A stretch of 64,000 nucleotides of DNA from an uncultured Clostridia bacterium (lineage in GTDB: Bacteria > Bacillota > Clostridia > Christensenellales > Borkfalkiaceae): the NCBI GenBank assembly GCA_947624965.1, contig CANQMN010000001.1, forward strand, positions 140,708-204,707, in the 5' to 3' direction. The translations under genes were made by a program, and so were the position numbers. The notes beneath the pieces are model-generated. The model had not been told where the DNA came from. It saw only the letters and a list, made by a program, of their open reading frames with translations, and made no database searches. Positions 11,290 to 45,490 of the stretch are shown piece after piece (position 1 is the first letter of the stretch; every line of letters begins with the position of its first letter).

Positions 11290-13917
11290 TTATAGCTTCT
11301 TGAAGGACAGATCTTTGTACTGGACGCGGCTGCTGTCCGAGAACAGTCCGCAATATCCGTCCATAAATGCGTTGTTGTCCACCGCTTCGAGGATCTGCAC
11401 GTCGTTGAGAAGGACGACGAACTTGTTCTGCAACACGCGCACGGTGACGCGGTTCGTCCTGCTTCCCGCAAAGGCGCGCTGTCCGTCCACGAGGGGCACT
11501 TCGCTCGCCAGCCGCGTCTCGAAGAAGTTCTCCTTGTAGAGCGCGACGGAATTTGCGTTCATTTCCAAAAGATACCCTTGGAACGCCCGTTTGGGGGTGC
11601 CCGCGATCTCGTCGTAGCAGAAGTTCTTCGCGCGGAAGAGAATGCCCGCCGTGCCCGACTTCACGGTAACGTCCACCGAGATCTCGTAGTTCGCGAGCCC
11701 CTTTGCGCCGAAGTAGTACAGCGTGCGCGGCTCGTCCGCGTTGGTTACCAGCCCGTTATTGGTGCTGAACGCCACCGAATCGCATCCGATGACGGGCGTC
11801 CCCTGCGCAAAGTCGGCGGTGAGCGGGGCGTCGAAGTCGTCCAGCCGCTGTGCATCCTTCGCCGTGGCGATCTGCGTCATGTTCAGCGTGCCCTTGTATA
11901 CCCTGATCTTCATCGAATGCACGCCCGCCTCGACGGGGAACGTCCCCGTGTGCACGGGCACATATCCCGATTCGGGGAATACGGCGTCCGAAACCTTCAT
12001 TTTATAGACGCTCCGCTCGTCGATGATGACCTCGAAGATACAGTTCGCGCTCTCCTTGGAGAGGGTGAGATCGAGCGCGTAGCGGCTCGCTTCTGGCGCG
12101 TTGACCGCATACTTCACCCAGTCGCCCGCATGGAGCACGGTCGCGACGCCGCCGTCCGATCCGCTCGCGGCGGTGCTCTCCTTTTCGCCCTGCCGCACGC
12201 CGTCCGTGCGGATCTGCGCCTGCGAGAGCTGCCAGCCCCTGTTCTCTTGTTTGAGATAGGTGTAGGCGGGGAAGGTCGCGCCGAGGTTTTTCACGCTCTC
12301 GAAGTCGCCCGTGCCGAACGCGTCGTCGGAGAACTGCACATAGCCCGTCTCCGTATCCTTGCCGACGCCCACCTTGCCGCCCGCCGAGACGGGGCGGTCC
12401 AGCGCGATGCGCTTCACGTTGTCGTACCAGATCTCGCTCTTGCCCGCGCCGTTGATCACGCGGACGGTATGCAAAGCGTCCGCGTAGTCGCTCGCGGCGA
12501 CGGTCGCCGAACCGAGGACTTCCGTCCCCCGCCTTACGGTGAGCGTCGTCCCGTCCACGGCGATCTCGGTAAACCCGTCGCTGCCGTAGCCGACGACCGC
12601 GCTCCCCCGCCCCGCGCGGAGCTTGAAGTTGATCTCCGCCGTGAACACCGCGCCGCTCGCCTGTTCGGAGAGCTTCCACGCGTCGTCGCCCGAGAGCGCG
12701 AGCCGCTCGTCCCCTTCCGAGGTGAAAACGGGCATCGCGGGCTTGGGCGTGGGCGTGATGCACAGCCCGTTGACGGAGAGTTTCCCTTGGTTGGTGAACA
12801 TCTGCGCCACGTTGTAGCGGCGGTTATAGCCCGAACCGTTCACGCCCGTGTGGTCGCGGCGCCCCGCGTTGTGATAGGCGATGAACACGCTGTCGAGGTT
12901 GGGACCATACACGTTGCTGCTGTGTCCCAGTCCGCGGTAGGTGCTCACTGCCTTATAGCCGCTCCCGGAGCCGTATCCGCCGCCCTCGTAGGGGGTATCG
13001 TCCCCCGTGTTGACGAGAATGATCTTGTTCTCCTCCGTTTTCAGATCGCGGAAGGGAAGCGCGTTTGCCGTGTACGAATACCCCACGCGGTAGCAGGAAG
13101 AATCCACGCTGTTGCCCGTATACGTGAGATACTTGTAGCCGTCCCGCTCGAAGATGCCGGGACCCTCCGTCCACCCGTTCAGAGAGGCGGTCTCGATGAT
13201 GACGCGGTTGCCCTTCGTTACTCTCCCCTCCCCGTCGAAGAGGAGCGGAACGTAGGTGATGGTGCTGCCCAAGGCGTTGCCCGTCGTCGCGGAGACGAGA
13301 TAGAGGTTGTCCTCCGCGTCCACCCAGAACGTACCGTCGATGCCCTCGCCGAGGTCGTTGGAGACGGGCTCGAACTTGCCGTTCGGCGACGTGGAGCGGA
13401 GAATGTAGTGCCCGGGCGTGCTTCTGCCCGATTCGTCCACGGGCTTCTCGCACAGATAGAAATAGCCGCGGTAGAACACGACCTCGGGCGCGTACGCCGT
13501 ATAGGCGATCGTGCCCGCGGAGCCCGCCGTGCCGTCGCCGTACACCCAGTTCGAGAACTCCCAGTCGATCATGTTGTCGGAGACCCAGCAGGGAATGCCG
13601 TGCGAGAGATGCCCCGTCGTTACCGAAGAATACAGATAGTATTTTCCGTTATAGCGCATCACATAGGGGTCGCCGATCTGGTAGATCTCGCCCTTGTCGT
13701 CGTAGAGTTCGATGTAGTTGAAGTAAGTGTTGTGCTCGTCGTATGTCGCGGCTTGGTATTTGATCTCGTCCGCGTCCAACGCGGTATGCGGTTGCGTATC
13801 GTAATCGTCCACGATGTCCTCGATGGGCGGGGCGTCCTTTCCGCAGGCGGCAATGCCGAGAAGCATGATGCCGCACAGCGCGATCCCCGCCGCTTTTTTC
13901 AGTTTATTTGCTTTCAT
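11290..13917 (-). CDS. GH43-type glycosidase lipoprotein with C-terminal LamG-like domains
   Basis: 875 aa. The signal peptide ends at LGIAAC (Cys25). The five-bladed GH43 propeller spans about 70-400: Asp83 in IGDPYVMRYN, Asp194 in IDGTFWVD, Glu251 in WTEGPGIF. It is followed by a concanavalin-like region (about 410-560), a probable carbohydrate-binding module (about 590-700) and another LamG-like domain to the end. It is anchored on the outer face, where it would trim arabinose-, xylose- or galactose-containing chains before import. Specificity is not readable. Confidence 0.88.
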   Translation of the reverse strand: MKANKLKKAAGIALCGIMLLGIAACGKDAPPIEDIVDDYDTQPHTALDADEIKYQAATYDEHNTYFNYIELYDDKGEIYQIGDPYVMRYNGKYYLYSSVTTGHLSHGIPCWVSDNMIDWEFSNWVYGDGTAGSAGTIAYTAYAPEVVFYRGYFYLCEKPVDESGRSTPGHYILRSTSPNGKFEPVSNDLGEGIDGTFWVDAEDNLYLVSATTGNALGSTITYVPLLFDGEGRVTKGNRVIIETASLNGWTEGPGIFERDGYKYLTYTGNSVDSSCYRVGYSYTANALPFRDLKTEENKIILVNTGDDTPYEGGGYGSGSGYKAVSTYRGLGHSSNVYGPNLDSVFIAYHNAGRRDHTGVNGSGYNRRYNVAQMFTNQGKLSVNGLCITPTPKPAMPVFTSEGDERLALSGDDAWKLSEQASGAVFTAEINFKLRAGRGSAVVGYGSDGFTEIAVDGTTLTVRRGTEVLGSATVAASDYADALHTVRVINGAGKSEIWYDNVKRIALDRPVSAGGKVGVGKDTETGYVQFSDDAFGTGDFESVKNLGATFPAYTYLKQENRGWQLSQAQIRTDGVRQGEKESTAASGSDGGVATVLHAGDWVKYAVNAPEASRYALDLTLSKESANCIFEVIIDERSVYKMKVSDAVFPESGYVPVHTGTFPVEAGVHSMKIRVYKGTLNMTQIATAKDAQRLDDFDAPLTADFAQGTPVIGCDSVAFSTNNGLVTNADEPRTLYYFGAKGLANYEISVDVTVKSGTAGILFRAKNFCYDEIAGTPKRAFQGYLLEMNANSVALYKENFFETRLASEVPLVDGQRAFAGSRTNRVTVRVLQNKFVVLLNDVQILEAVDNNAFMDGYCGLFSDSSRVQYKDLSFKKL

Positions 13918-13992: not shown

Positions 13993-16900
13993 TTATTCCG
14001 CGGCTTCCTTGTGGAACCCGTAGTACTCTCTGCCGGTCACGTGCGTACGCAAGCCGAACTCGGTCCCCGTGAGCGGGGCGGCATCCGTGTACTCGAAGAA
14101 CTGCGTATCGTTCACATACAGGATGATGTGAAGGCTCGTCTCCTCTTTTTTGAGCTCGATCGTCATCTTATAGGTGCCGTCGCTGTCCCATGCGCTGCCC
14201 GCGGCTTTCGCCCAGTCCGTACCGGCGGTGTTGTTGAGGACCTGATATCCCGTGGAGGAGCTCTGCGTGCCGACGCACTTCACGAGCTGCCAGCCGCCCT
14301 GCTGTGCGTTGATATACCAGTAGTAATAGCTCGTCGTCTCCTTCTGCGACGCCGTTTCGTTTGCAAGATCCGTCGCGCAGAACACCACGCCGCCCTGGTT
14401 GCCCGCCGTCGCGCCGGGGAAGGTGATATACCAGCTCAACTTCCCCTCCTCGAAGGGCTCGCCGTCCATGCGGACCATGGAGGGAACGGTGGGTTTGTAG
14501 AGATCGTACACGCCGTCGTTGGTGTGTCCCGCCGTGCCCTGCGACGCTTGGAAGGACGTGATGGGCTCTTCCACCGTCGCGTGCCATCTCGCTTTGAGGT
14601 GTACGCTCTTGATGGGCGTGCTCGTGGTAACGAGCTCGCCGCTCTCGTCCTCCCAGCCGACGAACTCATAGCCGAAGCCCGTCTTGTATTCGAGCGTGGG
14701 AAGAAGTTCGTCCGTGAAGTTTCCGTCGAACGGCGTCTGTGCCTGTTGGGGCGCAGTGCCGACCGAAGATTCGTACGAGACGATCGCCTGATCGGACCAG
14801 ACCGCATAGAGATTGGCGTTGACCGAGCCGTCCTTCATCACGACCTCGTCGCCCGCGTGCAGCGTTGCGGCGTCCGCGCCGCTGTCCGTCGCCCAGCCGA
14901 GGAAGCCGTGCTTGTCCTGCGCCGCCGCGGGAAGCGTATACTTCCAGTTCTTGGGAAGGGACACGGTGAGATCGTTTTCCTGCGCGCCGTCCACCTTGCC
15001 GCCGTTGCCGTGGAAAGTTACGGTGTACTTGTCGTCCTCGGGGATCTCCTCTACCGTCTCCGCCGTGAAGCCCCACCATTCGCGCGTTGCCTGCGCGGTG
15101 AGAATGCCCATCTGCGCGCCGCCGATCGGGTCCTCGTCCACATAGTCGAAGAACAGCTTGTCGTTCACATAGAGCATGATGTGGAGCTTTTCGCCCAACT
15201 TCTGCAATTCGACCGCCATCTTGTACGTGCCCGCGGGGTCAAACGCCGCGCCGTACGTAAGATTCCATGCCGACTGCGTGTTGACGTTGGTGCGCTTGCC
15301 GTCCGTAACCTTGTAGAGCATCCAGCCGCCCGAGGTGTTGTTGATGTACCACGAGTAGTACGGGTGCGAGAAATCGTTCACGTTCGTGGAGGACTGTTCC
15401 AACAGCTTGTCGATCTCGTTGCCGCCGAACATGAAGTGGTTGATGAGCTGCCCCGAACCGCCTTTGAAGGTGTTGAACCACGTGATCCTGCCCTCTTCGA
15501 GCGTCTCGTTGAAGATGATGAAGGAGTTCGCCGCGGGAGCGTACACGTCGTACACGCCGTCGTTTTTCATCACGGGTTCGGCGAGCGACCGCTTGGAGGT
15601 GAGCTTGGTCCCGCCCGAGAGCGTCGCCTTCCAGTGCGCGGTGAGCGTTACGCTCTCCGTAACGGGATCGCCCGCGTTCACCTTCGTCTCGGGATCCTTG
15701 TACCAGCCCTCGAACTCATAGCCGTACCCCTTCTTATATTCGAGCTCGGGAAGCTCCTCCGACGTGAAGTTGTGCCCTTCGCCCTTTTGAAGGGTCTTTG
15801 TCTCGGGCGCGGTCCCCACGGAGGTAACGTACGTGATGACCGCTTCGTTCGTGAAGATCGCATACAGTTCCGCGCCGCCGTCGATGTCCTTCCCGATGAC
15901 GAGCGTGTTCTCCACGATCTGCGCCCTGTCCTCCGAAGCCTTGGACCAGCCGAGGAAATCGTACCCGTCCCGCAACGCGGCGGGAAGCGTGATCGTCCAC
16001 CCGTCGAGCGCGTAGAGGTCGAGATCCTGCTGTCCGTTCACCGTGCCCTCCACGCCCGCATGGAGCGTGATCTGCAATTTTTCGCTGTTGTCGATCGCGT
16101 CGTGCTCCTGCGCGGAGACCGCATAGTACTCCCGCGCGTAGTCGCCCGCGGTCGAGCGGATCCCGATCTCCGTGCCGGGAAGCGGGCTGTTGTCCGTCGT
16201 GGTGAAGTAGGGCTCGTCGTTCACGAAGAGCGCAATGCGCAGTGCGCCGCTCGCAAGACGTTCGAGTTCTACCGTCATCTTGTAGTTGCCGTTCGCGTCG
16301 TAGGGTCTGCTGTACTTCCAATCGACGCCCACGGCGTTATTGAACGTCGTGTACGCCGTGCCGAGGCACTTGGCGAGCTGCCACTTGCCGCCGTCCTGAT
16401 TGAAATACCAGTAGTAATAGCTCGTATGCGCGGTGTTGTTTTTGGAATTGTCCGCGCTCACCTCGTTCACGAGATCCGTTCCGCCGAACACGATGCCGCC
16501 TTTGCCGCCCGTGCCCTTGAAATTGGTATAGAAGGTGAGCCTGCCCGAGTGCAGGGATATGCCGTCGAACTTGGCGATCGCCGTCGCGCTGACGCTGAAC
16601 AAATCGTATACGCCGTCGTTCTCCGTTTTCGGCGTGCCGATCTTGCTTGCGGAGAGCCCGCTCGCAAACGTCCCTTCGAGCGAGGCGTTCCAGTGCGCGG
16701 TGAGCGTAACGCTTTCCGTAACGGGGTCGCCCACGTTCACCTTCGTCCCTTCGTGATACCACCCGTCGAACTCGTAGCCGTACGGTGCGCCCGTGGGTGC
16801 GACAAGCTGCTCCGCCGTAAGCTGCGAATTGAGGGAGACCTGCGTCTTTGCGGGCGCCGTGCCAACGGGCGTAACATACGTGATGATCGCCTGATCGGTG

Positions 16901-19900
16901 AAGATCGCATACAAAGTATTGTCGATATACGAGGCGTTCATGTACATGTTCCCGAGTTGTTCCTCGGTGAGGATGTGATCGAAATCGCCCGCCGCCGTAG
17001 ACCAACCGACGAAGTGATTATCGGGCTTCGTGAGCGCCATGGGAAGTTCGATCTTCCAGTTTTCGGGAAGTTCGAGCTCGGTCGGCGCGCCCGCGCCGCC
17101 GTCGAGGTCGAGGTGGAGCGTTTTCTTGTTTTGAATGTCCTCCGCGCCCGCCGTCGTAAAGGCGAAATACTTTCTCGTGCCCGCGCTCTGGTTGGTGCGG
17201 ATGCCGAGTTCGTCGCCCGTGAGCGGCGTCTCGTCGAGGTAGGAGAAGAACAGCCTATCGTTCACATAGAGCAAGATGTAGGCGGAGCCGTCCGAAAGCC
17301 GCTGGATATCCACCGCCATCTTGTACGTGCCGTTCGGATCGAACGCCTCGCCGTAAGCATTCTGCCACGACGCGCCCGCGGCGATGTTGAGCACGCCGCC
17401 CGCGTAATCGGTGCCGATCACTTTCACGAGCTGCCAGTTGCCCCACACGCCGCTGCTCTGCCAGCTGTTGACATACCAGTAGTAGTAGCTCGTGTGCTCC
17501 GTCTGCGCCGCGCTCGTCTCGTGGGCAAGATCGGTCGCTCCGAAGAGGAAACCGCTCTGGCTCGCGGAAGTCGCGCCCGTAAACGTCGTGTAAAACTCCA
17601 CTCTGCCCTCGCTGAAAGTCTTGTCGAGCTTGATAATGGAGCTCGCGTAGGGCGTTACGATGTCGTAAATGCCGTCGTTTTCGCGCTCGAACGACCCGAC
17701 GACCGCCCTGTCGCCGAAGCCGGCGAGGTCGTCGGAGACCGCCGCCCAGTGCGCCGTGAGACGGAGATCGCCCGAAACGGTACTGCCCGCCGCATACTTC
17801 GTCGCGCCGTCGTACCAGCCGTCGAACTTATATCCCGTGCGCGTCGCCGCGGGGAGATCCTCCTGCAATTCGCCCTTGGTTACGACCGCGATCTCCGCAG
17901 ACGTGCCGCCGTTCGCGTCGAAGGTAACGACCGCCTGCGTCTCGTCGATGTAGTACGCATAGAGCGTCATGTCGTCGTATTCGCTTTGCATGATCTCGCC
18001 GCGGAAGAACGTCGTGCCGTCGTCGCGCTCCGTCGTCCAGCCGACGAACGTCTTGCCCTCCTCGGGCGTCGGCGCGGGAAGCGAGATGCCCCACCCCGCG
18101 GGACGGCGATATTCCGCCGTGCTTTCGCTGTTCAGCGTGCCGCCGTTCGCGTCGAGGTTTATGGTGAGCCCGCCGAGCGCGAAAGCCTCTTGGATATGCA
18201 CGCCGTAATAGGTGCAATTCCCGTCCTTATTGCGGAAGCCGAGCATGTCGCCCGTCAGCGCGGGACCGCCGATGCTTCCGTTGTCGTAATACGAGTCGAG
18301 TTTCGCGCCGTCGAAGTACAGGATGATGACCTTCCCGTTGGGCGCATCGGAAAATTCCACGGAGAGCTCGTGCCGCATGCCGGGGATGTAGTCTGCGAGC
18401 GTCCCCTGCAACAGGACGTCGTACCCGGGGTTGCTCTCGTTCGCCGTCTGGGGATTGGCGGAAGAGGTAACCTTTGCAAGTTGCCAAACGCCCGTCGAAT
18501 GGTTCATGTGCCAATAGTAATAACTCGAACCCGTTTGGATGAAGTCGGCGTCGCTCAACGTGCCGAAATCGGAGCGGATCGTCGCGCCGAACACGACCCC
18601 GTTGCCGCCGTATGTGGAATATTTGAGGTAGACGGTGTACTTCCCGTCCGTGAAGTGCACATTCTCGAAGGTCGCGAAGGAGCCGCTGTTCGCCTTGAAC
18701 GCGGTGTACCCTTCGTACGCCGTATCCGTCGTATAGGAGCCCTTGTCCGTGTGCAGGGTAACATCGGTAACCTCCTGCCCCGCGGGCTTTTGCCACTTCG
18801 CGGTGAGGATGACGAGCTTGGTGTCCCCGTCGTAATCCTGCGCCGCAAAGACGGTCTCCTCCTCCGCCTGCCGCTCCGTTCCACCGTCGTCGTAGAACCA
18901 GCCGACGAACTCGAAGCCGAGTTTTTGCACGGCGGGAAGTCCCTGCGCGCCGAGCGCTTCGCCGTTCGCGCGGTAGATGTAGGGGATCTGCGTCTCGTTG
19001 CCCGCCTCATAGACGATGGTCGCGCCGTGCGGAATGACGCTCCACGCGGCTTTCAGCGTGATGGAAGACGAAAGCGGCGACGTGCCGTCGTAGACCTCGC
19101 CGTCCGGATAACGCCAGCCCTCGAACGCATAGCCGGGGTTGGCGGGGACGGGAAGTTCCGCCGCGGGCATCGCCACTCCCTCTGCGACGCGCACGAACTT
19201 CGTTTCGCAGACGCCGCCGTTCGCATCCAACGTGATCTGGTTGTGGGTGGAACGGACTTGGAGATCTTCAAAGTAGATGCCGGGCTTGGTGGAGCGGAAG
19301 CCGACGCCGAGCCCGCCGAGATAGGCAAAGTGGTTGCCTTCCTCAAAGGTCCCCGTCGAACTCTCTACCGTAAGTTGCAGCGCATCGTCGACATAGAGGA
19401 CGACCCCGCTCTCCGACGATTCGATCTTGACGTGAATGGTGAGCGGCTCGGACGCATCCTTCGCCGCCGTGTATTTCTCCTTGAAGGGCGTGGTGTTCTG
19501 GGTGAGAAGCACGCTTTTGAGCGCGGAATAGCCGTTGGTGCCGCTGCCCGCCTGGATATACGCGATCTGGAATGCGCCCGCGCTAGGATTGAAGTGGAAA
19601 TACCAGTACTCGCTCCCGTCGTTCATGAACGGCGCGTCGCCGTTGCCGAGCGTAACGTTCCAAACAAGTCCCGCGCCCGTGCACGTATAGTCCTCAACGG
19701 TGATATCCGCCTCGATCTCGCCGTACGCCATCTCCGTTCCCGCCATCGTCGTAATGGCGCGCGTCGAAGTGGCGAGATGGTATCTCCCCTGCGCGTCGAC
19801 TTCCCACGAGGGAAGCACGCCGTAATCGTACAGCGCGGTGAGATAGACGTCCTCGGGATAATCGAGCGTGAAGGAATCCGTGTACGTCTTGTTCTCCGCC

Positions 19901-20388
19901 GTGTACTTCCAGCACAGGAAGGGATACGACTTGCCTCCGAGGACCTGCGGCTGCGGTTGCGGCAACGAGACCGTCTCCCCCACGGAGACGGTCATATCGT
20001 CGAAACTCTCGCCCGTCTTGGTATCGAAGATGATGCTGTACTGTCCGACCGACCACTTCGCATAGAGCGTCGCATCGCCGTCCACCTCCAAAGAGGGGGC
20101 GATGTTGCCGTTTGCCTGCACTTTTTGCGTAAGCGCCTCGTCGTAGTGCCAGCCGTCGAACCTGTACCCGTAGTTATACGGCGTGGGGAGCGTGAAGGGC
20201 TGTCCCACCGTATATGTCCGGGGCGCGATCGTCGCTTCGCAGTTCGTCTCGAAAGAGATGGTGTACTGGTCGCCGTCCCGCGATGCGCACGCCGCGATGC
20301 CGAACGCGAGCGTCAGGGCAAGGGCGACGGACATAAAAATCAGAGCGAGCTTGGAAACGATCGCCGATTTTTTGCCTACCGGTTTCAT
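13993..20388 (-). CDS. Giant modular surface lipoprotein: six units of two InlB B-repeats plus a LamG-like domain
   Basis: 2131 aa. The signal peptide ends at FGIAAC (Cys34). The mature protein is about six repeats of ~350 aa, each with two Listeria-Bacteroides (InlB B-type) repeats ending in motifs like YEFDGWY...TLTAHW, followed by a ~170-aa concanavalin/LamG-like domain marked by SYYYWYxN, WQLVK and YKMxxELxxL...LYVND. There is no sorting signal or protease domain. The LamG-like domains are probably glycan-binding and the B-repeats spacers; this is inference. It lies between two GH43 genes, so a substrate-capture role at the surface is plausible. Confidence 0.85.
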   Translation of the reverse strand: MKPVGKKSAIVSKLALIFMSVALALTLAFGIAACASRDGDQYTISFETNCEATIAPRTYTVGQPFTLPTPYNYGYRFDGWHYDEALTQKVQANGNIAPSLEVDGDATLYAKWSVGQYSIIFDTKTGESFDDMTVSVGETVSLPQPQPQVLGGKSYPFLCWKYTAENKTYTDSFTLDYPEDVYLTALYDYGVLPSWEVDAQGRYHLATSTRAITTMAGTEMAYGEIEADITVEDYTCTGAGLVWNVTLGNGDAPFMNDGSEYWYFHFNPSAGAFQIAYIQAGSGTNGYSALKSVLLTQNTTPFKEKYTAAKDASEPLTIHVKIESSESGVVLYVDDALQLTVESSTGTFEEGNHFAYLGGLGVGFRSTKPGIYFEDLQVRSTHNQITLDANGGVCETKFVRVAEGVAMPAAELPVPANPGYAFEGWRYPDGEVYDGTSPLSSSITLKAAWSVIPHGATIVYEAGNETQIPYIYRANGEALGAQGLPAVQKLGFEFVGWFYDDGGTERQAEEETVFAAQDYDGDTKLVILTAKWQKPAGQEVTDVTLHTDKGSYTTDTAYEGYTAFKANSGSFATFENVHFTDGKYTVYLKYSTYGGNGVVFGATIRSDFGTLSDADFIQTGSSYYYWHMNHSTGVWQLAKVTSSANPQTANESNPGYDVLLQGTLADYIPGMRHELSVEFSDAPNGKVIILYFDGAKLDSYYDNGSIGGPALTGDMLGFRNKDGNCTYYGVHIQEAFALGGLTINLDANGGTLNSESTAEYRRPAGWGISLPAPTPEEGKTFVGWTTERDDGTTFFRGEIMQSEYDDMTLYAYYIDETQAVVTFDANGGTSAEIAVVTKGELQEDLPAATRTGYKFDGWYDGATKYAAGSTVSGDLRLTAHWAAVSDDLAGFGDRAVVGSFERENDGIYDIVTPYASSIIKLDKTFSEGRVEFYTTFTGATSASQSGFLFGATDLAHETSAAQTEHTSYYYWYVNSWQSSGVWGNWQLVKVIGTDYAGGVLNIAAGASWQNAYGEAFDPNGTYKMAVDIQRLSDGSAYILLYVNDRLFFSYLDETPLTGDELGIRTNQSAGTRKYFAFTTAGAEDIQNKKTLHLDLDGGAGAPTELELPENWKIELPMALTKPDNHFVGWSTAAGDFDHILTEEQLGNMYMNASYIDNTLYAIFTDQAIITYVTPVGTAPAKTQVSLNSQLTAEQLVAPTGAPYGYEFDGWYHEGTKVNVGDPVTESVTLTAHWNASLEGTFASGLSASKIGTPKTENDGVYDLFSVSATAIAKFDGISLHSGRLTFYTNFKGTGGKGGIVFGGTDLVNEVSADNSKNNTAHTSYYYWYFNQDGGKWQLAKCLGTAYTTFNNAVGVDWKYSRPYDANGNYKMTVELERLASGALRIALFVNDEPYFTTTDNSPLPGTEIGIRSTAGDYAREYYAVSAQEHDAIDNSEKLQITLHAGVEGTVNGQQDLDLYALDGWTITLPAALRDGYDFLGWSKASEDRAQIVENTLVIGKDIDGGAELYAIFTNEAVITYVTSVGTAPETKTLQKGEGHNFTSEELPELEYKKGYGYEFEGWYKDPETKVNAGDPVTESVTLTAHWKATLSGGTKLTSKRSLAEPVMKNDGVYDVYAPAANSFIIFNETLEEGRITWFNTFKGGSGQLINHFMFGGNEIDKLLEQSSTNVNDFSHPYYSWYINNTSGGWMLYKVTDGKRTNVNTQSAWNLTYGAAFDPAGTYKMAVELQKLGEKLHIMLYVNDKLFFDYVDEDPIGGAQMGILTAQATREWWGFTAETVEEIPEDDKYTVTFHGNGGKVDGAQENDLTVSLPKNWKYTLPAAAQDKHGFLGWATDSGADAATLHAGDEVVMKDGSVNANLYAVWSDQAIVSYESSVGTAPQQAQTPFDGNFTDELLPTLEYKTGFGYEFVGWEDESGELVTTSTPIKSVHLKARWHATVEEPITSFQASQGTAGHTNDGVYDLYKPTVPSMVRMDGEPFEEGKLSWYITFPGATAGNQGGVVFCATDLANETASQKETTSYYYWYINAQQGGWQLVKCVGTQSSSTGYQVLNNTAGTDWAKAAGSAWDSDGTYKMTIELKKEETSLHIILYVNDTQFFEYTDAAPLTGTEFGLRTHVTGREYYGFHKEAAE

Positions 20389-37316: not shown

Positions 37317-40300
37317 TTACGCAGTGGGCGTCATCGTGATGGTAACCGTCTCATCCGCGGGCGCGCCAAAGAGCCAGAATTTGAAGGATACGATGTTGGA
37401 GGAGAGGCTCTTCTTCGTCCAAGTGTGCGTACGTCCTTCATCGCTCACCGTGCAACCGGAGTTGCCGGACTGCGTAGAGAAGAGCCCGCTCGGGAGAGAG
37501 ACGTTGCTCTGCTGATTCGTCAGCGACGAGAAGGTAATTACGATATCGTAGTACGCATAGCGACCGTTTGTAACCTTGAAGCCTTCCAACTCGAAATCGT
37601 ACTGCACGTAGTGTTCGGGCTTGAACGTAAACGCCACCCCCGGCTGTATCTTCTGTCCCGCGTGCGTCGTCAGTTTGAGGTTGATATCGATCGGCGCGTT
37701 CCCGTTCTCGGGATCGGTAGCCGCGGGCTGGTAGAGCACGAACTCTCTGCTCTGGAACGCGATGGGCAGGCTGAAATTGTTGTCCTTATTCAGCGTGTAC
37801 TGCTTGCCGTAGCTCCAAACGTAGAGCGTCGCCGTCTCTTTGAGTTCGGGCGCGAGCGTCGCCACGAGGTCGCAGAAGGAGTAGACACTGGTGTCCTTGC
37901 CCTCGTCGGACTTACCGATTTGGACTGCCTCGTCGAGCTTGACGATGATAATCCCCGCCGCGGGAACGGTGATGGAGACATCGCCGCCGTCGAGCGTGAG
38001 CGACTTTTCCAACGCTTCCGTGTACTTCTGCAAGGTCAACGTGTACGTGCTCGAACCCGACGACCCGCCGTAGGCGAGGGTGAAGCTACGATCGGTCTCC
38101 GAAAGGATAACGATCTCGTACGGCTTCGACCCCGTGAGCGACACCGCGCCACCCTCCGCCTTCGTGATACCGCCCCCGATGTTGAGGGTCGTGAACGACG
38201 AGGAAGTCGTCGTCGCGGAGAGCAGGTACTTGTTCTCTGCGCCGCGTGCGAGCGAGGAATCGAAGATCGCGGTCTTTGCGGTCTTGGAAACGCCGCTGTA
38301 CGTCATCGGCGCGTCGAGTTTGAGTGCGGTACTCTCATCGGGATTTTCGAGCTTGATCGTCGCGCTCACCGTTTCGTTTCCATAGTAGTTGGCCAAGTTG
38401 ATCATCAGGAACGCGTTGCCGTCGGTGAGCGTGAGTTTCAACAGCGAGCTTTCGATCTTGCGACTATTACCGCTGAACGTGAACGTTTGTCCCAACGCGC
38501 CGAACGTTGCAGATCCCTTGGGCCCCTTCGCATCGCCGAACGCGAACTGCGGCGAGCCGCTCGGAACGCTTATGGGCGTAGCGGTGATCTTGCAATAGAC
38601 CGTCTGCCCGATCAAACTGCTGTCGATAGGTAAGAACACACGCTCCGTCGTGCCCTTGATCGACACATTGATGCCGTCGCCGCCGAGCGTGAGCGCCTCG
38701 CCCTTGTACTCTTCGAGCGTGAAGGTAACGTCGCAGGACGTTGTATTGGACATCGTAACATCGAGCGTCTTATTGATGTTGTAGAACGCGAAGGCTTTGG
38801 ACTTATATTCGTTGTCCTTGTTGAGGGTAATGGTCGCAAGCAAGACCGAGGTCGCGCTGTTCGATCCCGTAAACGAGAACGTGGGATCGCTGCCTTCGTT
38901 GCCGGATACTTCCGCCTTGATGGTGTACAGTTTGCCAATCGTTACGCCCTTCAATTCGAGCGCAGCCTTGACGCCCGTCTTCATGGTGGTGGTTACGGGC
39001 GAGCCGACGCCAAAACCGAGGTATTCGTTGATCGTGAGGCGGACAAAGTGGTCGACAATGGTGCCGGCGAAACCGGGCATCGAGCCCATACCGGAGATAC
39101 AGCCGGTCATATCCACCGTGAGATATTCGGACCCGAACGTTACCTGTTCATACTTCTGTCCCTTCGTTTTAAATTCCCACCGGTTTTCGCCCACCTTGAC
39201 CGTTCCGCAGAGTTCGCCGTCCTTATGGTCGGTGCCCGGCATATTTTTCCAACCGATGTCGTAGGGCATGGTGATGGTGAACGTCTTCCCGCCCGCGTTC
39301 TTCGCGAGAACTTCGTCCGGCAATTTGTACCATGCGGTAGGAGGCGTGGTGCCGCCCTCGTTGAAGTGCACCTGGAAGCCGGAGATCAACTGCGCCATCG
39401 TGAGCGCGGTAACGGGGATGTAGGTCATGTACACCTTCACGTCCTCCGAAACGCCGCTCACCGTGAGTTTGAAGCGGTGGACCGCCGCCGCGGACGTACC
39501 GACCGCGGCAATTTCCTTGGTCGCCGAATAGCTCTTGCCTTCGCCCGCATCCTTGGTGAAGCCGTCGATTACGATGCTTGCGGGGAACGTATCCGTGTCG
39601 CCCGACGTAAAGGTGAGCGTGAGCGAGGAGAGATCGAGCTCTTCGCCGCTCGCCGCCTCCGCATGGAAGCTAACGAGGGCAAGCGGGTTAAGGTAGACGC
39701 TCGCGTACTTCTCGCCCGCGGAGGAGAGCGTAACCGCGCTTCCCGCCGTCATGTCTTTGCCGAAGGCAACGTCGTTTTTCATCGCGCCCGAGAAGGAGAA
39801 GGCGACCGCCTCGTCCGTTTGGGACGTGATGTAGAAGTAGTTCTTGTTGAGGGCGAGCGGAGCCGTTGTGAACACTTCGCCGCTCTTGGTGAATTCCGCC
39901 GTCTCGTCGTCGTTGTAGTGGATGATGAACTTGACGTTGTCGCCCACTTCGCCCGTCGGCGTGATGGTGAACACGTAGGGCGCGTATTCGCCCTGAATAT
40001 CGGAGGAGAGCGCGATGTACGTCGCCTCATCCGGCTGCAAGGTTACGGACGTCGTCTCGTTCTGCCCGATCTTCGTGTAGTCGAGATAATGGATGGTGAT
40101 ATCGTGTTCCGCACCGTCCGCCGCCGCGATATAGCACTGCCGTGCGCCCGTGCCGCCGCCGCAGAGGAACATGGGAAGCGTCCAGTTATTGGACTTATCG
40201 AGCGTGAACTTGTCGGAGCCGTGGTAGAAGTAGAACACGTCGCCTTCGTTTGCGCCCTCGATCCAGAAGCGGGTCTCCATATAGTTATCGTAATCGATAA

Positions 40301-43300
40301 GCTCCATGGCTTTCTCCGCGCCCGCCTCGATGTGGAGGCTCTCGCCCGCCTTCTCCGACTTGGAGAGTTGCACGCACGAATACTTTTCGACGTGGATGGT
40401 TACGGTAACTTCCTTATCCGCTTTGAGCGTGAAGGTCGCAGTGCGCTGCAAATTGAGCTTGTATACCTTGTAGCGGCTCGCCGCGTTGAGCGTGATGGAT
40501 TCGTAGGTGTATCCGCTGTCCACGTTGGAGACGAAGACGATCTCCGCGCTCTCCGAGACCTGCAACCAGAGGTTGTACTGCTCCATCTCTTTCCCCGGGA
40601 CGGAGGTTTTGAGGATATCCGCGCTGAATTTGAACTTCTGCGCCGTCGTATTCAGCGTAACGCCTTCGAGCGGCTCGTCGATGCCGACGAAATTCGCCGA
40701 ATCGTCGGTGAGCTCGAACCAGACGTCGTAACAGCTGCCCGCACTGCCCGCCGTGATCGCGATGTAATTGTAGCTCGACGTGAAGGAGAACACGAATTCG
40801 GTGTAGTCATCCTCCGTCTTCCGCTCTTCCTTCAATTCGGTCAACGCGGGAGCGGTACCCGTTTCCGTATCGATCTTTTTCCCGGAGCAAACGCTCAACG
40901 ACGCCACCTTCGCGTGGCTTCTCACGTACATCTTATAGGAGTGCTGTAAGAGCACGGTGTTCGGGAGAGTGAAAGGAATGTAATGCCCGTTGGAGAGCCC
41001 GGAGTAGCCCGCGCCGACCGTCGTCTTGGAGCCGTCCGTCGCCGCCGACGGGATCCCCGCCGATTGCAACGTGAGCGTGCCGCTGAGCGTGGGACCGTTA
41101 TAGGTGAGAAGGTCGATCGTGAGCGTATCCGCCGTCTTCATGCCGTTTTCACTGCGGAAGTAGGCGATGAACTTGGAAGTCGTTCCGTCGCTCTCCGCCT
41201 CGCTGTACGCAAGGTTAGCTTTGACGCCCGTGAGGGAGCCGTTCATGGCGATGGCGCCGCGGAAGTCGGTGTTCTCCACCGCAAACGTGAGCTTGTAACC
41301 GCCGCTCGCCGACTTCGTGGCATTGCGAATGTTGCTGATGGAGATCGAGAAGGAGGTGTACTGCGCGGGGTCGATGGCGCAATCGGTCGAATTGCCGACG
41401 CTGACGGCACGCGAGAAGGGATTTTCCGCCTGCCAATGCGCTTTGAGCACGATGTCCGCCGCGGGCATCACGAAGGAGGACTCGACGTTGAGCACGGTCA
41501 TGGAATCGGCGCCCGCCGCCGTGTATTCCCAACCTGCGAGGAGGTAGTTCTCACGCGTGAACATGTCGCGGGAGCCGAGCGTTACGGTCGCGCCCTCTTC
41601 GTTGTGGAGCTTGTTCACGGGCGTGCCCGTCGCGTCGCGGTGGTTTGCCTCGTACGTGATGTTGTACACGCGGTGCATCGAGAAGTTGACAACGGAGTAG
41701 TAATCGGTGGTATCCGTGCTCGCAACGAGCCAAACGGCGGTATCCCCTTCCTCGATGTCGATGTAATAGGTTTTGCCCAAATAGGACGCGGTGAGTTCAA
41801 CGGGATCCTTCCCCTCTGCGACGAGCGCGAGCGAAGGGATCGCATGACCGCCGACCGTGGACACCGTGAACGCATAGGAGCCCGCGTCGAGATCGGCGAG
41901 TTTGAGCTTGAATTTGCCGTCCTTCTCCTCGTTGTAGGGATTGGTGGGCGCGACGACGACGGTCTCCACCGAGCCGTCGAGCTCGGGCTGGACATACGCC
42001 TCCAACTCGAAGTCCACCGTGAGAGCCGCGGAGAGCGCATCTTCCAAATAGACGGTGAATTCGTGCACGCCCGCAATTTCGATATAGCCGACGTAGACGT
42101 ACTTATTCGCGTCCGCATCGCTCGCCGCGGTATCCTTGTAGAAGTAGGAACGCACGCCGTCGACGGTTACGTAGAAATCGGTCGTCTCGACGTTGAGCGT
42201 CGCGGTGAGCTTGTATTCGCCCGCAAGCGAAGGCGCAAGCGAAACGGTAAAGGAGGTGTGCTCCGCGCCCGCGATCTGCACGCCGCTCAACTTGTTTGCC
42301 GCGCCGAGCCCGAGCGTGCCCTCGACCGTGTAGATGTCCTCGGGCTTCCACTTCACCGTGAACTTGATCTCGCCCGCGGCGTTGAGCTGTTCCGCCGTGA
42401 AGACGAGGCTGTCGCCAGGGTGCGCGACCTTCGTTTCGCCCGCGGCATCCTGATATTCCCAACCGTCGAACACGAAGCCGGGCTTCGTAATTCTCATATC
42501 GCCGTTGTGGAGCACGGTGTAGCTATCGAACGCCTTATCGGTATCCACATAGGAGCCCTCGGACCCCGCCCCGCCCTCGTAAACGAAGTTCGCGCGGGTG
42601 TACACGGCGGAGAGCTTCACCTGCACCTGCACGAGCGTATCGCCCGTGTGCGTTACGACAAAGCCGTAGGAATAGCTGCTCCAAGCGTTCGTAAGCTGCG
42701 AGGACATCGCATTCGCCTGCGTGAGCGAAGAGGTACGGAGAAGCGAAGTCGCGCTCCTCGACTGCATGGTAAACTGGTAGACCTTTGCGCCTTCGAGCGA
42801 GGAGCCTTGCACTTCGGCGGTGTACTGCGCATAGCCGTGCTTCTGCGTGTAGAAGTAGCCGAACGTGGAGACGTTGCTCTTGTAGCCCGTGGAGCTCGAA
42901 AGTCCCGTGAGCATGAGCCAGCTCTCGGGAACGGCGTAAACGGTGATGTTCTCCTCGGAGGCGGTAACCAAATTCTTCTCGTAAGGCGTGCAATTTGCGA
43001 CCGCTTCGAGCGTGAGGGTCACTGTGCAGGCAACGGTTCTATCGAAGTTGATGAGGCGGAGCGCATAGTCGTCCTTGGCGTACCCATCGAGATAGATAAT
43101 GCCCTCGAACTTGGAAGCGTCGTCCGTCGCCGCCGTGAGGTTGAAGATGTATTCGACGTTCTGCACGCCTTCGAGCCCGCTCGTCGTGTAGCCCATGATG
43201 GCGCTCGGGTTGCCGTCCGCGGACGTAACCTTCGCCGTGAGCTTATAGTAGCCCGCCTGAATGCCGCTCACAAGCCCGAGGTTCTTCACCGTGCCGTACG

Positions 43301-44411
43301 TGGACGAGCTCGCCGTGGGAAGTTCGAGCCCGACATAGGCGTTCTCCTCGCCCAAGCCGAGGCGCATGTTGCTGTAATAGGCGACCGCAAGGTAAATTTC
43401 CTTCTCGTCTGCCGTCTCATCCGCCGCCGCGAACAGGTGGTTCGCCGCCGCCCTCTGCAAAAATCCGTACAGTTCGGCGTCGATGGGATAGAGACCTTGC
43501 CCGTTGACCTTTTCCGCATACGCTTTGAGGAGCGGATAGTAGTTGTGGCGCGTCCACTCGTTGGTGGACTCGTTCGTGCACTCTTCAAAGGTGAAGAGGC
43601 CGCTGTCGGGCTCGGTAACGAGCTCCTTGATCGTCTTGCCGGCGAAGATACGGTCGTTTTCCACATCGAGCATGAGATAGGCGATCGCATCGCCGTAATA
43701 GTATTTGCCCTCGCTCTCGCGGAGCTGGTTCATGCCGAGCTCGGTGATCTCAACGGGGAGCGCTTCCCTGTTGGTGTACCCTTCCGCAGGCGCGGGCGTG
43801 CCGCTCGCGGTGTGGTTGACGTCCGTCGCATAGTGCTTCGCATAGGAGAGCACGATCTGCGCGGAGGTGTTGCCTTCCCCGACGGCGACGGCGTCCGCTT
43901 CCACATATGCGGAAGGCACGCTCAAAGCCGCGACCTCGTAAGAACTGCCCGCGTGCTTGGTGTATGTAAGGGAGACGGAGCCCGTGGCGTCCGTCGTGCC
44001 GACTGCCGCCGCAACGCCTTCCGCCGCATCGCCCGCCGCGTATTGCAGCGCGACCTGCGCGCCCTCTACGGGCAAGCCCGCCGTGTCCTCCACGGAGACG
44101 GTGAACGTCTCGGGAACGCCGAGCGAGACGGCGATGTTCTTTTCCGTGCCGTCCACGTTGAGCACGGGCTCATAGCCCGCGGGGATACCGTAAGAGGACG
44201 CCGACTGCGTGCCTACTCCCACATAAAAAACGCGCGAAAGAGCAACGCTGACGTAAGCATCCGCTTCCCCGCGGACGCTCGTACGCAGCGTGTGCACGTT
44301 CTCGCGCGCATCGTTATTCAGATAGTAGACGTCGAGGTAAATATCTTTGAGAGCAGTTTCCGCCGCATCCTTCGCGGTGAGCTTAAAGGACGCGTATTCG
44401 GATAGAGACAC
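37317..44411 (-). CDS. Giant surface lipoprotein, main part (out of frame with its signal peptide)
   Basis: 2364 aa in one frame, joining the 120-aa signal-peptide ORF through a run of nine G (44411-44419). The first ~480 residues contain an Ig-like segment and a helical region; two B-repeat-like segments (GFVFDGWEYQD...TVKW, LLAGWEYTAAG...KAHW) lie near 640-980. The rest is many ~100-140-aa beta domains resembling the pre-peptidase C-terminal type. There is no sorting motif at the end. It has no ribosome site of its own, so it is expressed only when the G tract restores frame. Probably a surface adhesin or envelope protein (inference). Confidence 0.82.
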   Translation of the reverse strand: MSLSEYASFKLTAKDAAETALKDIYLDVYYLNNDARENVHTLRTSVRGEADAYVSVALSRVFYVGVGTQSASSYGIPAGYEPVLNVDGTEKNIAVSLGVPETFTVSVEDTAGLPVEGAQVALQYAAGDAAEGVAAAVGTTDATGSVSLTYTKHAGSSYEVAALSVPSAYVEADAVAVGEGNTSAQIVLSYAKHYATDVNHTASGTPAPAEGYTNREALPVEITELGMNQLRESEGKYYYGDAIAYLMLDVENDRIFAGKTIKELVTEPDSGLFTFEECTNESTNEWTRHNYYPLLKAYAEKVNGQGLYPIDAELYGFLQRAAANHLFAAADETADEKEIYLAVAYYSNMRLGLGEENAYVGLELPTASSSTYGTVKNLGLVSGIQAGYYKLTAKVTSADGNPSAIMGYTTSGLEGVQNVEYIFNLTAATDDASKFEGIIYLDGYAKDDYALRLINFDRTVACTVTLTLEAVANCTPYEKNLVTASEENITVYAVPESWLMLTGLSSSTGYKSNVSTFGYFYTQKHGYAQYTAEVQGSSLEGAKVYQFTMQSRSATSLLRTSSLTQANAMSSQLTNAWSSYSYGFVVTHTGDTLVQVQVKLSAVYTRANFVYEGGAGSEGSYVDTDKAFDSYTVLHNGDMRITKPGFVFDGWEYQDAAGETKVAHPGDSLVFTAEQLNAAGEIKFTVKWKPEDIYTVEGTLGLGAANKLSGVQIAGAEHTSFTVSLAPSLAGEYKLTATLNVETTDFYVTVDGVRSYFYKDTAASDADANKYVYVGYIEIAGVHEFTVYLEDALSAALTVDFELEAYVQPELDGSVETVVVAPTNPYNEEKDGKFKLKLADLDAGSYAFTVSTVGGHAIPSLALVAEGKDPVELTASYLGKTYYIDIEEGDTAVWLVASTDTTDYYSVVNFSMHRVYNITYEANHRDATGTPVNKLHNEEGATVTLGSRDMFTRENYLLAGWEYTAAGADSMTVLNVESSFVMPAADIVLKAHWQAENPFSRAVSVGNSTDCAIDPAQYTSFSISISNIRNATKSASGGYKLTFAVENTDFRGAIAMNGSLTGVKANLAYSEAESDGTTSKFIAYFRSENGMKTADTLTIDLLTYNGPTLSGTLTLQSAGIPSAATDGSKTTVGAGYSGLSNGHYIPFTLPNTVLLQHSYKMYVRSHAKVASLSVCSGKKIDTETGTAPALTELKEERKTEDDYTEFVFSFTSSYNYIAITAGSAGSCYDVWFELTDDSANFVGIDEPLEGVTLNTTAQKFKFSADILKTSVPGKEMEQYNLWLQVSESAEIVFVSNVDSGYTYESITLNAASRYKVYKLNLQRTATFTLKADKEVTVTIHVEKYSCVQLSKSEKAGESLHIEAGAEKAMELIDYDNYMETRFWIEGANEGDVFYFYHGSDKFTLDKSNNWTLPMFLCGGGTGARQCYIAAADGAEHDITIHYLDYTKIGQNETTSVTLQPDEATYIALSSDIQGEYAPYVFTITPTGEVGDNVKFIIHYNDDETAEFTKSGEVFTTAPLALNKNYFYITSQTDEAVAFSFSGAMKNDVAFGKDMTAGSAVTLSSAGEKYASVYLNPLALVSFHAEAASGEELDLSSLTLTFTSGDTDTFPASIVIDGFTKDAGEGKSYSATKEIAAVGTSAAAVHRFKLTVSGVSEDVKVYMTYIPVTALTMAQLISGFQVHFNEGGTTPPTAWYKLPDEVLAKNAGGKTFTITMPYDIGWKNMPGTDHKDGELCGTVKVGENRWEFKTKGQKYEQVTFGSEYLTVDMTGCISGMGSMPGFAGTIVDHFVRLTINEYLGFGVGSPVTTTMKTGVKAALELKGVTIGKLYTIKAEVSGNEGSDPTFSFTGSNSATSVLLATITLNKDNEYKSKAFAFYNINKTLDVTMSNTTSCDVTFTLEEYKGEALTLGGDGINVSIKGTTERVFLPIDSSLIGQTVYCKITATPISVPSGSPQFAFGDAKGPKGSATFGALGQTFTFSGNSRKIESSLLKLTLTDGNAFLMINLANYYGNETVSATIKLENPDESTALKLDAPMTYSGVSKTAKTAIFDSSLARGAENKYLLSATTTSSSFTTLNIGGGITKAEGGAVSLTGSKPYEIVILSETDRSFTLAYGGSSGSSTYTLTLQKYTEALEKSLTLDGGDVSITVPAAGIIIVKLDEAVQIGKSDEGKDTSVYSFCDLVATLAPELKETATLYVWSYGKQYTLNKDNNFSLPIAFQSREFVLYQPAATDPENGNAPIDINLKLTTHAGQKIQPGVAFTFKPEHYVQYDFELEGFKVTNGRYAYYDIVITFSSLTNQQSNVSLPSGLFSTQSGNSGCTVSDEGRTHTWTKKSLSSNIVSFKFWLFGAPADETVTITMTPTA

Positions 44412-44745
44412 CCCCCCCCGAAGTGATCGGCATCATGTACAGTTTTCCGCTCGAAAATTGCACTTTGACATAGGGCACTTCGCCTTCGCCGACGGAGACA
44501 GCCCCGATGGAGCTCACCTGCCCGCCGCTCAATGCGTTGATGCCCGCCGTGATATCGTTATACCATTCTTCCAGGGACTTCGCCCCGCTTCCGACGGTTT
44601 GGCTGTAAACGCCGTAGACCGCCTCGTACTGCGCGTCGACTTTGAAGTCTTCTTCGCCGTCGTCGCACGCAGCGATCCCCGCGACGCAGGCGACCGCGCA
44701 GAGGGCGGTGAGCGTCGCTACCAGAAGTTTCCGCAATGCTTTCAT
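44383..44745 (-). CDS. Signal-peptide ORF of the giant lipoprotein, ends after the G9 tract
   Basis: 120 aa. Signal peptide and lipobox AGIAAC (Cys27), then about 75 residues that lead directly into the giant protein. After PITSGGG the frame gives VSIRIRVL and stops; one base over it gives VSLSEYASFKLTAKD and continues for 2350 codons. Eight or eleven G would be in frame; nine is out of frame. The ATG at 44745 lies behind a strong promoter (44830-44858). Confidence 0.82.
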   Translation of the reverse strand: MKALRKLLVATLTALCAVACVAGIAACDDGEEDFKVDAQYEAVYGVYSQTVGSGAKSLEEWYNDITAGINALSGGQVSSIGAVSVGEGEVPYVKVQFSSGKLYMMPITSGGGVSIRIRVL

Positions 44746-44779
44746 AAAACCTACCTCGACTGTTTTCGTACAGAGATGA

Positions 44780-44829: not shown

Positions 44830-44858
44830 TATAATATCATTATAAATTTCTTTTGTCA
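44830..44858 (-). promoter_or_regulatory. Promoter of the giant lipoprotein gene
   Basis: On the minus strand TTGACA, 17-bp spacer, TATTAT, giving a leader of about 80 nt. Confidence 0.78.
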
Positions 44859-44970
44859 AACAAATTGACGGGGGTTTTTGCAAGAATTTCCGCGCGCTTC
44901 GGCATAAATTTCCCAAATCCCGCGCCTCGGGTGGCGCAAAGCCCCCTCCGCACGGCGGTTTTTCCCTGTC

Positions 44971-45490
44971 CTCCCCCTACCCTACCCTCCCCCCTCGCTT
45001 GCGAGGGGGGAGGTAAATAGAAAGAACGGCAGCAAAGGGAGAGACGGGCGGGTGAAAAAAGCGGGAAGGGAAATATTTACTCCCCTTGGTAAGGGGAGTA
45101 AATATAACTACCTCCCTCTTGAAAGGGGGAGGGTTGGGTGGGGGTTGAAAAGGACGAGGAGTAGATTCCCTCCCCCCACCCTACCCTCCCCCCTCACAAC
45201 GTGAGGGGGGAGGTAAATAGAAAGAACGGCGGGAAAGGGAAAAGAGAGAGCGCGAGAAGAAACGGCGGGAAAGGGAGAGACGGGCGGGTAGAAAAAGCGG
45301 GAAGGGAAATATTTACTCCCCTTGGTTAGGGGAGTAAGTATAACTACCTCCCCCTTGGTAAGGGGGAGGGTTGGGTGGGGGTTGAGAAGGACGGGAGGTA
45401 GAGCCCCTCCCCCTACCCTACCCTCCCCCCTCGCAAAGCGAGGGGGGAGGTAAATAGAGAACCTCCCCCTCGCAAGCGAGGGGGGAGGGA
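44971..45490. repeat. Tandem array of GC-rich palindromic repeats
   Basis: No gene is present. Two long near-identical units and a third partial one begin at about 44978, 45178 and 45415. Each unit carries CCTACCCTCCCCCCTC-N-GAGGGGGGAGGTAAATAGA, then AAGGGAAATATTTACTCCCC with its inverted partner GGGGAGTAAATA, then CTACCTCCC...GGGAGGGTTGGGTGGGG. Units differ mainly in loop bases and one ~35-bp insertion. Confidence 0.82.

Follow-up and report, generated by a model that had tools for sequence, protein, structure and literature searches.

Phase variation based on homopolymeric tracts is best known from Gram-negative pathogens. In Bifidobacterium breve UCC2003, the sortase-dependent pili depend on genes carrying an intragenic G tract, the replication slippage of which was followed by deep sequencing (PMC9187656). 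In the porA gene of Neisseria meningitidis, a G tract is located between the -35 and -10 hexamers and the transcript level follows the number of Gs (PMC3899988). The homopolymeric tracts present at the 5' end of genes have been presented in a survey as a general regulatory mechanism (PMC2831843). Phase variation is also known in Clostridia, in Clostridioides difficile, but the parts of the reports considered here attribute it to the inversion of DNA by recombinases and not to homopolymers (PMC9286219, PMC8890394). Among the matches listed from the open-licence PMC literature, no paper deals with homopolymer switching in Christensenellales or Borkfalkia, and no paper in this literature contains both "Christensenellales" and "phase variation".

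The stretch of DNA analyzed here (64,000 nucleotides, referred to below as the window) lies on contig C1 of a genome of 1.79 Mb in 34 contigs, which is apparently a metagenome assembly and probably comes from a gut member of the Clostridia (G000). The only G/C run of at least seven bases in the window is a G9 tract on the coding (minus) strand, i.e., C9 on the plus strand, at positions 44411-44419; runs of four, five, and six bases occur 363, 120, and 17 times, respectively, and runs of seven or eight are absent. The tract is located within a gene, at about residue 108, at the boundary between two reading frames. The upstream ORF (44383-44745, minus strand, 120 aa) comprises a signal peptide and the start of a mature predicted lipoprotein, as judged from the ORF and its match with a paralog. 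The predicted lipoprotein signal peptide MKALRKLLVATLTALCAVACVAGIAAC (44665-44745, minus strand), in which the lipobox cysteine is Cys27, was identified using a fixed sequence rule. This frame continues for about 80 residues past the signal peptide, enters the G9 tract and meets a stop about 8 codons later. The downstream ORF (37317-44411, minus strand), which overlaps the upstream one at the tract in a different frame, begins with a GTG located where the tract ends and remains open for 2364 codons without any stop. The meeting of a signal-peptide ORF and a giant ORF out of frame at this tract had been reported in an earlier note on this DNA and is confirmed by the sequence; the sizes given there are correct to within a few residues (2364 aa for the downstream ORF and about 2470 aa for the product of an in-frame form).

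The split gene is preceded by a predicted promoter without a G tract (44831-44859, minus strand; TTGACA at 44859-44854 and TATTAT at 44836-44831, with a spacer of 17) and by a Shine-Dalgarno-like sequence GAGGTAGG upstream of the ATG (44750-44757, minus strand). The downstream ORF shows weak matches, below the cut-off, with Big_1 and the InlB B-repeat (Ig-like/InlB-repeat), and these matches, together with the lipobox signal peptide, predict that the product of the gene is surface-exposed. The LPxT[GAS] motif was sought in the window ORF and in the paralog and is present in neither of them, and no solved structure matches the giant protein by sequence. Since the downstream ORF starts from a GTG and has no signal peptide, it would not be exported on its own. 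Just upstream of the split gene is a G/C-rich, repeat-like stretch (44940-45200; gaggggggaggt..., gttgggtggggg), and intergenic stretches resembling it carry G8 or G9 runs elsewhere in the genome (L020, L022, L028, and L038). A second giant ORF of the window (13993-20388, minus strand) encodes 2131 aa, contains seven Listeria-Bacteroides repeats, matches DUF6250, and adjoins a GH43 ORF (11290-13917).

A search in the window's own genome yielded a single paralog (C23:7062-14366), which is one intact ORF of 2434 aa starting with MKKLRRFLM...LAAC.... It shows 33-34% identity with the window protein over the full length (query residues 1-2360), with 34% for the downstream ORF. Its start is 51% identical to the upstream ORF over 111 aa, and the two matched query segments (1-111 and 103-600) overlap at the tract. 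Since one ORF of the paralog matches both pieces, the comparison of the sequences indicates that the two ORFs of the window are parts of one gene. At the homologous point, the paralog, the one homolog available for this comparison, also carries a G9 tract, which in this case is in frame. Immediately 5' of the tract, the sequences of the two paralogs are unequal in length, so that tracts of equal length leave the two genes in opposite frames. These opposite frames are as expected for a gene with a drifting in-frame length, and a plain indel beside the tract would fit them too: because the length of the 5' flank differs, the OFF state of the window gene need not come from a change in the tract itself. 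The codon pair GGG-GGG encodes none of the 73 glycine pairs in 13 other ORFs of the window and none of the 13 pairs in the window ORF; in the paralog it encodes one of 18, and that one is the tract. As this codon pair is absent from the other glycine pairs, the amino acid sequence does not in itself dictate the tract.

It is likely, in our view, that the G9 tract, which divides a single giant gene for a predicted lipoprotein into two frames, acts as a slipped-strand phase-variation switch belonging to a genus-wide set. The tract would gain or lose Gs by slipped-strand mispairing during replication. In the window gene, a change in length would move the frame, translation ending just past the tract in the OFF state, which is the state assembled here; at an in-frame length (ON), it would continue into a cell-surface lipoprotein of about 2470 aa. 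Several features of contingency loci are present, namely a long homopolymer where a change in length alters the frame, an intact frame beyond it, and a tract kept in a homolog (one homolog only), with ON and OFF states. Tract lengths are polymorphic elsewhere in the genus and the order; the window locus has a single form on four contigs. In searches of a protein database, in which about 7990 candidates sharing most words were scored, only the genes' own forms were returned. For the window gene, this was the OFF-form ORF of 2364 aa (one sequence on four contigs, which may not be independent), and no length variation was seen at its tract; for the paralog, it was the ON form (one sequence on four contigs).

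The return of the OFF form only is in line with the main rival explanation, a fixed frameshift, in which the window gene would be a duplicate that broke recently, with the G9 tract doing no more than marking a slip or a nearby indel. The unequal 5' flanks point in the same direction, and the intact paralog may make the window copy dispensable. Among 103 genomes of the genus, the pair formed by the window gene and the paralog occurs in one, so that the ON state of the window gene is seen in no relative; on one genome, a recent loss and an OFF phase are indistinguishable. Relatives of the giant protein were searched for in 61 and in 103 genus genomes, which yielded the paralog only, plus short InlB-repeat matches in two genomes, and none was found in a genome-contig collection from which records near the window genome are possibly omitted. 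We nevertheless hold the fixed frameshift to be unlikely: 2364 codons have remained open, whereas about 2.5 stops are expected per 1% of neutral substitution, and the presence of G9 at the homologous point of a 34%-identical paralog is improbable as a result of codon choice.

In the earlier note, a sequencing indel had been named as the main alternative, a position that belongs instead to the recent fixed frameshift. An indel introduced at the homopolymer by sequencing or assembly, the real gene being simply in frame, would be conceivable in what is probably a metagenome assembly, a G9 tract being an error-prone kind of place. It is very improbable, however, in view of the fact that the same 2364-aa form occurs on four (possibly not independent) contigs and that four of the six tracts located in lipoprotein genes of the same genome are in frame, which argues against a general miscall. 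The paralog protein also occurs on a 71,100-base contig, longer than the 16,184-base contig that carries it here; the same form of the paralog is therefore present in one further assembly or more, although this has no direct bearing on the window tract. A G9 run can be slippery, and programmed ribosomal or transcriptional slippage at the tract would give a fixed fraction of full-length protein from unchanged DNA, which is consistent with the long frame staying open. A conserved out-of-frame layout would be expected in this case, but the paralog (the one homolog compared) is in frame with the same G9, and slippage of this kind leaves unexplained the tracts located in promoter spacers, where no frame is involved, and their length differences; we consider it most unlikely. 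The slipped-strand switch is the reading we prefer.

In G000, 23 G/C runs of at least nine bases were found, versus about 16 per genome (about 0.56 per 64 kb) expected from the dinucleotide counts and 41 expected from the base composition. An excess of G9 runs as such is therefore not supported, and it is the placement of the tracts, not their number, that departs from chance. Nine of the 23 tracts are spacers between promoter-like -35 and -10 hexamers (at most two mismatches with TTGACA/TATAAT and spacers of 15-19), and all nine precede predicted exported proteins, i.e., eight lipoproteins and a giant protein whose signal peptide is of the ordinary type. Six tracts are located inside predicted lipoprotein genes, four in frame (L020, L024, where the tract is just behind the lipobox, L026, and L033) and two out of frame (the window gene and L034). 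A G10 tract lies upstream of a predicted exported protein of 1945 aa or more (L017). The remaining seven include runs in dispersed intergenic repeats, where some of the G8 and G9 runs are located. Of the 17 G8 tracts of the genome, two lie in promoter spacers; a lipoprotein follows one of them, and a protein with a sub-threshold GrpE match follows the other. In all, about seventeen tracts are tied to predicted exported proteins (the nine spacers, the six in lipoprotein genes, L017, and one G8), the signal-peptide and lipoprotein calls being based on a fixed custom rule and not on a trained predictor. The "coding" assignments of L028 and L246 stem from spurious start codons close to the tract and were left out of the counts.

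The other out-of-frame lipoprotein gene predicted in this genome, L034 (251-2998 and upstream, contig C28), carries its G9 inside the signal peptide, immediately before the lipobox; in its homolog P0006 (31% identity), the lipoprotein signal is intact and a glycine run is lacking at that place. In the genome G030, L240 looks like a further out-of-frame lipoprotein gene, near a contig end. A Pfam scan of nine products identified BspA-type leucine-rich repeats in L035 and Listeria-Bacteroides repeats in L023 and, below the cut-off, in L022; five of the nine had no match at E 1e-4.

Poly-G promoter spacers are distributed well beyond the window's genome. The pattern TTGAC-N(0-12)-G7-N(0-8)-TATAAT occurs at 218 sites in 74 of the 101 genus genomes searched, 21 of these sites being supplied by G002 alone, and the reversed pattern does not occur in them. 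When G8 was required, the pattern was found in 41 of the 247 order genomes, a set comprising those of the window's genus, and in 5 of the 249 phylum genomes, G000 included; its reversed form occurred in none of the former and in two of the latter. The collection of named genomes contains at least 119 such stretches, other groups included. The suggestion in the earlier note that such a layout is uncommon in Clostridia does not apply to this lineage, where these tracts are frequent. Poly-G spacers from Treponema ruminis, Streptobacillus notomytis, Helicobacter sp. 16-1353, and Pumilibacter muris (L108, L124, L133, and L152) are among the matches listed. In P. muris CLA-AA-M08, a cultured relative, the promoter (L152) has a G9 tract in a spacer of 16 and stands in front of a gene for a predicted lipoprotein of 948 aa. 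G002 carries a repeated, near-identical poly-G promoter, and the four copies examined out of 21 each precede one lipoprotein family, MNTKKWLALGLSVALAATAALAAC or nearly so. A strand rule allowing for G only was rejected, as C-tract spacers occur at 26 sites in 21 of the 101 genomes, seven of these being one identical C7 promoter.

In G000 and four further genomes taken together, 39 of the 85 tracts of at least nine Gs are promoter spacers, and the gene that follows encodes a lipoprotein in 22 cases, another membrane or signal-bearing protein in five, and neither in nine, no gene being found in three. The same rule selects 123 of 34,000 random positions (0.36%), 40 of 2415 positions located immediately before lipoprotein starts (1.7%), and 2 of 85 on the opposite strand. 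Thirty-seven of the 85 tracts belong neither to the promoter spacers nor to the lipoprotein genes, and the link with lipoproteins is weakest in G017 (one of five spacer tracts). When 30 G-spacer loci from 30 genomes, those retrieved with the G7 pattern in the genus, were compared with 30 G-less promoters of G000 (the first 30 of its 78 promoters without G7), the next gene encoded a lipoprotein in 18 versus 1, another membrane or signal-bearing protein in 4 versus 1, and neither in 6 versus 21, and was lacking in 2 versus 7; for lipoproteins the Fisher test gives 2.6e-6, some of the 30 G-spacer loci being mutual orthologs.

For the spacers, tract length would determine how far apart the -35 and -10 hexamers lie, and hence how strong the promoter is. 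Among the exact TTGACA/TATAAT pairs, the spacer measures 17 in 3 of 47 cases with G8 or more versus 26 of 45 without G8 (Fisher, 7e-8), in a comparison that leaves out the control loci fetched by spacing and keeps the paralogs in (42 distinct spacer strings). The other lengths of the G-spacer promoters scatter from 14 to 20, with one at 26. The close relatives G001 and G055 (L286/L287) share 98.2% identity over 2969 bp and differ by three indels, one of which is G8/G9 in the spacer; the gene behind this spacer has no predicted signal peptide. The lipoprotein orthologs L052 and L291 (G013 and G079; 93% over 1766 bp, with many indels) have G10 and G7, the paralogs L292 and L293 of G002 have G7 and G8, and the paralogs L284 and L285 of G184, from another family of the order, have G11 and G12. 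Several sets of paralogs are uniform in tract length, such as four in G030 that are all G9. In a rabbit-gut Bacilli assembly, three paralogous promoters (L114 at 3264, L150 at 2010 and 3138) have G10, G8, and G9, the spacer bases around the tract being identical. The tract length in relatives, the comparison of which had been proposed in the earlier note, thus differs at other poly-G promoters; at the window tract, where the gene pair occurs in one of the 103 genus genomes, no difference was seen. The contingency-locus reading put forward there gains support from the in-frame tract of the paralog, the clustering at spacers and lipoprotein genes, and the length differences between close relatives.

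The MutS sequence of G001 is 74% identical to that of G000, 72% to that of G030, 62-63% to those of two Candidatus Borkfalkia genomes, 61% to that of a second genus of the same family, and 45-51% to those of three other families and Pumilibacter muris. That of Candidatus Avimicrobium is 59% identical over a 227-residue piece, and no match was found in G118. On the basis of these identities, the window's genome is probably that of a member of a genus that is sister to Borkfalkia; NCBI taxonomy places Borkfalkia in Christensenellales, Clostridia. Loss of MutS as the cause of slippage was rejected, since mutS1 is present in all 21 genomes (21/21); with MutS1 present, any instability would stem from the tract itself. 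Separately from mutS1, a stretch resembling the MutS N-terminus occurs in very long open frames (2400-3765 aa) in G000 (C29:3375-3746), G001, G006, and G013, and in shorter frames in G005 and G018.

The split of the window gene, the in-frame tract of its paralog, the clustering of the tracts, and the length differences at other loci are direct observations. It seems fairly likely that they belong to a lineage-wide, multi-gene slipped-strand phasome in uncultured Christensenellales (this genus together with sister families of its order), similar in kind to those of Neisseria or Helicobacter, in which poly-G switches in promoter spacers and reading frames, with MutS intact, would act in ON/OFF combinations. 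Many different sets of exposed surface lipoproteins would then coexist in a population, which might be useful against phages, host antibodies, and changing mucosal or dietary surfaces. If the switches work, strain-level surface diversity of these gut bacteria is generated within the host, which bears on phage resistance, on immune recognition, and on how "broken" genes in metagenome assemblies are read.

Within the portions of the literature considered here, the closest demonstrated precedents would be the pilus G tracts of B. breve for the coding class (PMC9187656) and porA for the spacer class (PMC3899988). The window locus is like that of B. breve UCC2003, also a gut commensal, in that a short ORF with a secretion signal and a very long ORF (2674 aa in the case of bbr_1889b) are split by a G tract; it differs in that the B. 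breve product is an LPXTG pilin, whereas here a lipoprotein without LPxTG is predicted and the genome also carries tracts in promoter spacers (PMC9187656). The porA gene, a single gene in a Gram-negative species, resembles the promoter class described here and not the window tract (PMC3899988). Unlike this single-gene case, the poly-G spacers amount to 218 sites in 74 of 101 genus genomes and often precede predicted lipoproteins. As in the cases described in the survey (PMC2831843), the tract of the window gene is near the 5' end and inactivation would be by frameshift. The sections of that survey considered here stress poly(A) and poly(T) in coding genes, whereas the tracts described here are poly-G and include promoter spacers (PMC2831843).
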